From Pseudooceanicola nanhaiensis (lineage in GTDB: Bacteria > Pseudomonadota > Alphaproteobacteria > Rhodobacterales > Rhodobacteraceae), in the NCBI RefSeq assembly GCF_020171315.1, contig NZ_JAIUZP010000004.1, positions 1-64,000 of the forward strand: a stretch of DNA of 64,000 nucleotides, in the 5' to 3' direction. Positions 18,046 to 23,306 of this stretch are shown piece after piece (within the stretch, counting starts at the first letter, position 1; each line of letters starts with the position of its first letter). The translations under genes and the position numbers were made by a program. The notes below the pieces were generated by a model. It was not told where the DNA came from and did no database searches. It saw only the letters and a list, made by a program, of their open reading frames with translations.

Positions 18046-18323
18046 CGGGCAGCGGCCGTCTGCTGCTGACGCACACCGGCCGCCTGATTTCGACGGGACC
18101 CGGGCGACCACATCTGCCGGGATAGGGTGACCGCGCCGGAGGCCTTCAGCACAGGCGCGATGACCCGGACCTTGGGACTTCGGCCGCTGGCCGCGTATAG
18201 GCGCGCTGCCCCGCTGCCTTCGCCGTCGACTCTTTCTGCCCCCTGCATGGCCGCGCATCCCGATCCGCGCTGCACCGTACCGTACCGCATCACATCGCCT
18301 CGCGATCCACCTGCACCGCACCG

Positions 18324-18358
18324 AAAAAACCGCCGCACTTCCTTTCGGAAGGCGGCGG
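18324..18358 (-). terminator. Intrinsic terminator downstream of the 40-residue membrane protein
   Basis: On the minus strand the stem CCGCCG...CGGCGG with inner CTTCC/GGAAG and loop GAAA is followed directly by GGTTTTTTCGG. It lies 165 bp after the small gene at 18523-18645 and is the first good terminator on that strand. The 477-bp gap 18046-18522 otherwise holds GC-rich sequence with no convincing gene. Confidence 0.7.
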
Positions 18359-18522
18359 TGAGTGAACATTTCCGTCGGGGACAGAAGAGAGCGGAACCGG
18401 GGGATGAGGCAACCCCGGCGCATCCAAGACAGGCATCTCGGTGCGGGTCACATGTGGGGGACGTGACGGGCAGGCCCTCGGATTGACGGAAATGCGGACA
18501 GAAACAGACGTAAGGCGTGTCC

Positions 18523-18645
18523 TCAGACGAGGCCGGGCAGATGCAGGCTGCCCACGAGAATGACGATCAGCGCCACCGCACCGACGAGGTCCTGCACCAG
18601 TTCCATGCCGGACCGGCTGACGACCGTTTTGACTTGCTGAACCAT
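18523..18645 (-). CDS. 40-residue single-span membrane protein, candidate SOS-induced small protein
   Basis: The encoded protein begins MVQQVKTVVSRSGMELVQ, then has one hydrophobic segment (about residues 20-38: LVGAVALIVILVGSLHL) and ends PGLV. The amphipathic basic N-terminus suggests an inner-membrane protein with its N-terminus in the cytoplasm. A textbook RBS, GGAGG, stands 5 bases before the ATG. A LexA-type direct repeat GTTC-N7-GTTC lies 64 bp upstream, and a rho-independent terminator lies downstream. It follows recG, but a 117-bp gap with its own control elements separates them. Short SOS-induced single-span proteins that block division are established (SidA in Caulobacter). There is no claim of homology here. 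Function is inferred only from regulation and topology. Confidence 0.65.
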   Translation of the reverse strand: MVQQVKTVVSRSGMELVQDLVGAVALIVILVGSLHLPGLV

Positions 18646-18708
18646 GTTGACCTCCGCTGCGTTGCGTTGTGTTGCCACTTTGTTCTCATATCCATTCCGC
18701 TGAGTAAA

Positions 18709-18723
18709 GAACTTTTTGAGAAC
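18709..18723 (-). promoter_or_regulatory. LexA/SOS box, GTTC-N7-GTTC
   Basis: On the minus strand GTTCTCAAAAAGTTC is an exact match to the alphaproteobacterial LexA operator GTTC-N7-GTTC. A third GTTC lies just upstream at 6-bp spacing (18730-18733). The box ends 64 bp before the start codon of the 40-residue membrane protein. A TATGAG hexamer lies 16 bp past a possible -35 that overlaps the right half-site, where LexA binding would block RNA polymerase. Confidence 0.65.
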
Positions 18724-18762
18724 ATTTGTGAACAAAACGCGATGCGCGCGGGAACAACCGCG

Positions 18763-23306
<4,544 letters not shown>

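Follow-up and report, generated by a model that had tools for sequence, protein, structure and literature searches.

A conserved small-protein gene behind recG in Rhodobacteraceae: a candidate SOS membrane effector with a structured 3' RNA

One of the questions raised by the recG-ligA region of Pseudooceanicola nanhaiensis is why a gene of only 40 codons should stand directly behind it, preceded by a box that resembles an operator of the SOS repressor LexA. Is it a real gene, is it under LexA control, and what would so small a product do after DNA damage? The window, the whole stretch of 64,000 nucleotides that was analysed, had been described in preliminary form as carrying here an open reading frame (ORF) with a ribosome-binding site, one hydrophobic span, a GTTC-N7-GTTC box with a third GTTC and a terminator, and all of these are present in the sequence (Table 1). 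The ORF runs on the minus strand from an ATG starting at 18645 to a TGA at 18525-18523, the ATG standing five bases past the end of the GGAGG and separated from the box by 63 bases. Upstream lie recG and ligA, which overlap by 4 bases, with 29 bases between the end of recG and the third GTTC; downstream, the convergent neighbour on the opposite strand is a gene with an MCP signalling domain. The view taken in the preliminary description, that the small gene forms a transcription unit of its own behind recG, is supported. A leader peptide of a downstream gene was ruled out for the window, since the terminator is followed by the MCP-type gene on the other strand.

Table 1. Coordinates of the small gene and the elements around it in the window.
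Feature	Position	Strand	Basis
40-aa single-span membrane protein gene	18523-18645, including stop	minus	sequence, profile, dN/dS, structure prediction
GGAGG ribosome-binding site	18651-18655 (plus-strand cctcc)	minus	sequence
LexA-type operator GTTCTCAAAAAGTTC (candidate)	18709-18723	minus	sequence and conservation
Third GTTC half-site	18730-18733	minus	six bases upstream of the GTTCTCAAAAAGTTC box
Conserved promoter/leader block TTTAC-N-TATGAGAACAAAG-GGCAACA	18670-18708	minus	alignment of 131 loci
Structured 3' RNA, a closing helix around hairpins whose loops are C-rich	18366-18495	minus	MFE fold
Intrinsic terminator CCGCCGCC..GTGCGGCGG-TTTTTT	18324-18359	minus	stem-loop and T-run
recG, upstream neighbour	18763-20853	minus	Pfam DEAD, Helicase_C, RecG_wedge, RecG_dom3_C

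How widely is the gene found? A search with the single protein gave matches in 29 of 60 sampled genomes, namely 20 of 22 from its own genus, 9 of 14 from the rest of the Rhodobacteraceae and 0 of 24 from other families. A profile built from 27 relatives matched 277 of 292 Rhodobacteraceae genomes, representing 108 of 112 genera, with a single match in most genomes. Thirteen of the 15 profile misses (nine, then four more) still show a box and, downstream of recG, a small membrane ORF that has diverged; these were called by eye from position, length and hydrophobicity and are unscored, so the total of 290 of the 292 sampled family genomes joins 277 found by profile to 13 found by eye. Six of the rescued ORFs, all from genus g45, have 31-37 codons and may be compared with a 31-codon form in a Paracoccus (L145). 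In these short forms (L231, L233-L237 and L145) most of the charged N-terminal stretch is absent and mainly the membrane helix is left. In a class-wide draw of 385 genomes the profile matched 5, all of them Rhodobacteraceae, and none of the other 380, of which the 20 listed by family all lie outside Rhodobacteraceae.

The ORF also behaves as a coding sequence. Its length is 36-42 codons in 133 of 135 loci, and among 99 distinct 40-codon ORFs variation is highest at the third codon position; for pairs of these with 8-30 differences, 119 in all and not independent of one another, dN/dS has a median of 0.15 and is below 0.5 in 118. A spurious ORF is therefore rejected by the constancy of length together with the dN/dS, and the earlier claim of a real gene is borne out both by this ratio and by the 277 profile matches. 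By the measure of sequence comparison the 40-codon ORF is a real, conserved gene under purifying selection. It has no convincing match to a known family: Pfam and PADLOC profiles matched 0 of 27 members, and NCBIfam gave no convincing match, the one member hit being aligned to TatE at E 0.065. A large protein collection holds 350 related clusters at E <= 0.001, and of the 120 listed, all that are named bear the label hypothetical or uncharacterized protein.

The encoded protein has one hydrophobic span, with a 19-residue Kyte-Doolittle maximum of 2.3 from residue 16, and a maximum of at least 1.6 on this type of scale recurs in 120 of 121 distinct relatives of 38-42 residues. All 121 relatives have D-x-x-G, followed in 118 by a proline 15-18 residues after the glycine; D19, G22, L34 and P37 are invariant in a 27-row alignment, and mean column identity across genera is 61%. 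AlphaFold predicts one continuous helix over residues 2-39 (mean pLDDT 81.9, lower at the N-terminus), a model that in itself says nothing about interaction partners and that, with the hydrophobicity, supports the single-span reading of the preliminary description. The first 18 residues are net positive in 98 of the 121 relatives and the last 20 are practically uncharged, a pattern that points to a single-span inner-membrane protein whose N-terminus is, with good probability, in the cytoplasm. The product is likely to be a membrane effector rather than a housekeeping protein.

What of the box? For the window alone one GTTC-N7-GTTC was seen against 1.35 expected, with at least one in 71 of 100 shuffles, and from this count a chance box was considered. 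It was dropped once all 57 of the distinct loci fetched by protein similarity only proved to have an exact GTTC-N7-GTTC ahead of the ORF, with the first base of the box 76-107 nt before the ATG. Of 787 control pieces of recG, 200 nt each, 2 hold the box when both orientations are counted, and it is because of this difference that the box stands above chance; the LexA-type box that had been noticed upstream of the gene is thereby confirmed, and frame, start and box are all clearly conserved among relatives. The genome as a whole holds 92 copies of GTTC-N7-GTTC against 40 of the reversed pattern. The spacer is TTAAAAA or TCAAAAA in 38 of the 57 loci and different in 19, and in diverged boxes the GTTC halves are retained and the spacer altered. 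Such an A-rich conserved spacer is unlike the other boxes read in the genome, and it may serve a promoter element or some second regulator as well.

The conservation extends on either side of the box. In 118 of 131 aligned loci (138 less duplicates, edge loci and two chance hits) a GAGAACAA-like element lies at a fixed spacing from it, and the four bases of the third GTTC are conserved in 120-128 of the 131, a figure to be read with the fact that 80 of the 138 underlying loci had been picked via the downstream box. The promoter/leader block contains GAAC at 18685-18682, an inverted half-site. No sigma-70 consensus promoter was found on either strand of 18250-18850, where a terminator scan also failed to report the obvious terminator at 18324-18359; the block may hold the -35 and -10 elements, the assignments being candidates that lack a sigma-70 consensus match. 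In two loci of genus g84 (L274 and L275) a further GTTC lies 11 bp downstream of the box, so that the half-site repeats can be extended on either side, and the lexA genes of two genomes (L256 and L257) have two overlapping boxes 11 bp apart. The extra half-sites around the box suggest that repression is tight, as would suit a product that does harm if mistimed.

A search of named genomes with the box plus its next bases found at least 118 stretches. Among the 80 listed, 78 are non-chance loci, drawn from Rhodobacteraceae, among them Ruegeria, Sulfitobacter, Roseovarius, Celeribacter, Rhodobacter, Paracoccus, Tabrizicola and Planktomarina, or from bins whose names stop at a higher rank, and two (L124 and L146) are chance hits in Bacteroidota records. 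The ORF is present in 77 of the 80, the exceptions being the two chance hits and a locus that ends before the ORF (L177). Of the 78 non-chance loci listed, 75 have recG ahead of the box, which makes 75 of all 80; recG is absent from the two chance hits, from two loci at a locus edge (L135 and L167) and from L159. The last, which comes from a bin of Gemmobacter, has both the box and the ORF (L159:5125-5144) and no recognisable recG in the 8 kb examined.

The link between this box and LexA comes from the literature and from lexA itself. The LexA motif published for Caulobacter is GTTC-N7-GTTC (PMC12700426), and an account of Dinoroseobacter shibae places its predicted LexA sites in two consensus groups, GTTC and GAAC (PMC6473078). 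The operator assignment made in the preliminary description agrees with the Caulobacter motif and also with the family's own lexA genes, which carry GTTC-N7-GTTC upstream, within 110 nt of the coding match, in 22 of 22 genomes (14 chosen as profile misses and 8 others). In the P. nanhaiensis genome the same type of box precedes recA, lexA, a UvrD-like helicase gene and an MmcB-like gene. A lexA match was found in 291 of the 292 family genomes, and the sole exception (G288) is also without box and ORF, its recG running directly into another gene; SOS control seems to have been lost there. By eye the start of the gene after recG in this 2.6-Mb genome (L262) reads like a histidyl-tRNA synthetase type protein. 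Another genome (G140), with a weak best lexA match (E 7e-16), keeps both ORF and box, and a third (G328, L229) keeps lexA, the box and the promoter block behind recG and is without the membrane ORF; what remains is a short stretch that ends much like a terminator. From motif and conservation, binding of LexA to the box and SOS induction of the small gene are very probable.

Boxes of this type were also met elsewhere in the P. nanhaiensis genome. One on a small contig (L064:1481-1910; G000:C21:17180) consists of GTTCTATCTTTGTTC with a downstream TAAGAACAAAACGACAA block, like the present promoter, and precedes a 111-residue protein that has no Pfam match and is perhaps encoded by a plasmid SOS gene. 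Others lie directly before an MT-A70-like methyltransferase gene (L063; G000:C12:97703) and a radical SAM gene (L067; C4:207654), both possible SOS genes. Four GTTCTCYTCGGGTTC matches within 560 bp (G000:C6:190915-191472) are probably an intragenic repeat and not LexA boxes.

Behind the stop codon a further conserved part of the transcript precedes the terminator, which follows after roughly 120-160 nt in most loci. Folding was examined in 109 of the 135 ORF loci, near-duplicates from an organism that had been fetched twice being kept, with 14 left out for an unrecognised terminator or a cut end and 12 for length limits or N. The mean fold z is -2.66, with 78 loci below -2 and 2 above 0, as compared with +0.05 for recG pieces (n=108, 3 below -2) and -0.35 for downstream pieces (n=109, 9 below -2); a trimmed piece of 115 nt from the window gives -2.68. 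A closing helix 10 or more pairs long forms in 93 of 109 loci against 1126 of 3270 shuffles. Two short motifs recur. UGCCU was seen 239 times against 41 in shuffles, occurs in 106 of 109 loci and is 82% unpaired against 45% overall; UGUCCC was seen 127 times against 16 in shuffles, occurs in 91 of the 109 and is 70% unpaired.

A cross-genus alignment of the 3' RNA from 24 loci has 49% mean column identity and many gaps, and covariation was for that reason run on two sub-clades. In a Ruegeria-like set (n=16) GCCTCGGCCC is invariant, CCTGCCTGTCCC is one base off in 3, and two-sided changes occur in 6 of 45 pairs; among 9 sequences that are closer to the window they occur in 9 of 30 pairs, with some pairs broken in up to 3 of the 9. 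The covariation support is modest. Rfam returned 0 matches at gathering score in 12 loci, the best small-RNA family in the window being ar7 at 12.7 bits against a cut-off of 60, and by this lack of a match a known RNA family was ruled out. An anti-Shine-Dalgarno small RNA of the CCUCC type was likewise rejected because CCTCC is depleted, with 12 seen against 65 in shuffles. To judge from computed folds, the transcript has a conserved, folded 3' part, whose role is probably to stabilise its mRNA, to control translation or, once released, to act as a regulatory RNA. The preliminary description stood as to gene, span, box and independent unit, and missed the near-universality of the gene in the family and the conserved 3' RNA.

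With which known systems, then, can the unit be compared? The mRNAs of TisB and DinQ in E. coli are structured, and the SOS operator of E. coli is of a different type from GTTC-N7-GTTC. DicB and DicF of the same organism are cryptic-prophage genes with promoter control of their own, and differ in this from an ORF that carries a 3' RNA itself. The closest functional parallel within the class is SidA of Caulobacter crescentus, an SOS-induced division inhibitor described as a LexA-controlled inner-membrane protein of 29 residues that acts on FtsW (PMC4211646). The present protein shares with SidA its predicted nature as a tiny inner-membrane protein, its alphaproteobacterial host and the GTTC-N7-GTTC LexA box (PMC4211646, PMC12700426); it differs in its 40 residues, in its place behind recG and in the structured 3' RNA, and the likeness drawn here is one of features. 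TisB (29 residues, from the chromosomal tisB/istR-1 locus; PMC11449926) and DinQ (SOS-regulated, single-span and toxic, with two antisense RNAs; PMC3567139) are, as the present product is predicted to be, tiny membrane proteins under SOS control. DicB/DicF offers a precedent for a small protein and a small RNA in one operon, both of which are reported to affect division (PMC10448788). Pos19 of Rhodobacter sphaeroides is a stress-induced short RNA with a small ORF and, unlike the gene described here, is assigned to the RpoE regulon and oxidative stress instead of SOS (PMC5036791). Finally, YneA of Bacillus and SosA of Staphylococcus are given as SOS-induced division inhibitors (PMC13396833, PMC6851548); they belong to other phyla, and the likeness proposed is one of function.

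These comparisons allow a mechanism to be outlined. LexA, bound to GTTC-N7-GTTC and possibly also to the extra GTTC half-sites, would silence an independent promoter behind recG until RecA-stimulated cleavage of LexA after DNA damage released an RNA of roughly 350 nt, the start of which is expected near the TATGAGAACAAA block. This RNA would be translated into the 40-residue protein, its mostly positive N-terminal stretch staying in the cytoplasm and its single helix, with the conserved D-x-x-G...P pattern, spanning the inner membrane, where it would contact an integral membrane partner. The late divisome (FtsW/FtsI/FtsN) would be the likeliest partner, and division would be delayed during repair. 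The folded 3' part with its UGCCU/UGUCCC loops would end in the terminator and serve mRNA stability, translation control or as a regulatory RNA. The chain as a whole, short of the exact partner and overlapping with some of the alternatives below, has roughly an even chance of being right, and it is as part of this chain that the small gene is proposed as a core SOS gene of the Rhodobacteraceae. Division as the target is somewhat less than an even bet; it is favoured because SidA is the closest functional parallel in the class, and the sequence itself contains no pointer to the divisome. In a rather doubtful extension the unit would be a two-armed SOS checkpoint, with the 5' half encoding a membrane inhibitor and the 3' half yielding a free regulatory RNA whose UGCCU/UGUCCC loops silence mRNAs; if true, one promoter would stop the cell at both the protein and the mRNA level.

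What else could the unit be? Many tiny membrane proteins modulate larger ones, and the product could be an SOS accessory protein acting not on division but on some other membrane protein, such as a protease, a transporter or a respiratory or DNA-uptake component. The D, G and P residues conserved along the helix hint at a helix-helix contact with a partner and would suit such a role, which has an appreciable but minor likelihood, given that no linked partner gene was seen and that the constant neighbour checked was recG upstream. Type I toxins are usually patchy in distribution and come with an RNA antitoxin. The small gene is near family-wide, mostly present as one match per genome and under strong purifying selection, all of which tells against its being a depolariser that lowers the proton-motive force while the 3' RNA keeps its mRNA poorly translated in the manner of a type I toxin; no antisense antitoxin of the kind known for TisB and DinQ is apparent in a sigma-70 consensus scan of both strands of 18250-18850, which is a promoter scan and not a real antisense search. 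Its size, single span, LexA-type box and structured transcript do fit a toxin of that sort, with TisB (PMC11449926) and DinQ (PMC3567139) as precedents, and the reading is unlikely without being far-fetched.

The remaining alternatives concern the box and the RNA. Were the box read by some other factor for 11-bp direct repeats, for instance an OmpR-type activator, the gene would be stress-regulated and not part of the SOS response. The conserved A-rich spacer, the third GTTC 10 bp upstream with the further GTTC 11 bp downstream in two loci, and the genome that keeps its box despite a weak lexA match could all be cited for this, and it is nonetheless improbable when the GTTC halves outlast changes in the spacer, lexA carries the same box in every one of the 22 genomes, and the genome that has no lexA match lacks the unit. 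Still less probable, and only faintly so, is that the unit is primarily a regulatory RNA to which the ORF is secondary. The strong 3' structure, the recurrent loops and the genome that has the box without the membrane ORF speak for the RNA, whereas the constant ORF length and low dN/dS indicate selection on the protein, whose cross-genus identity is also the higher of the two (61% against 49% with many gaps). The reading preferred here is a putative LexA-repressed unit that makes an inner-membrane SOS effector together with a structured and possibly regulatory RNA.

Searches of the freely accessible literature found no description of the gene or of the RNA, and neither these searches nor the available part of the Dinoroseobacter SOS paper (PMC6473078) yielded an SOS-induced division inhibitor of Rhodobacteraceae; nor did the searches bring up expression data for the gene. 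SOS-induced tiny membrane proteins are already known, and the present one looks like a separate, family-wide case with a structured RNA attached. Rhodobacteraceae are abundant marine bacteria. A gene that is present in 290 of 292 of their sampled genomes, stands behind a box of the DNA-damage type and has no family model is a testable candidate for an SOS effector, and the folded RNA attached to it could give the alphaproteobacterial SOS response an RNA arm.
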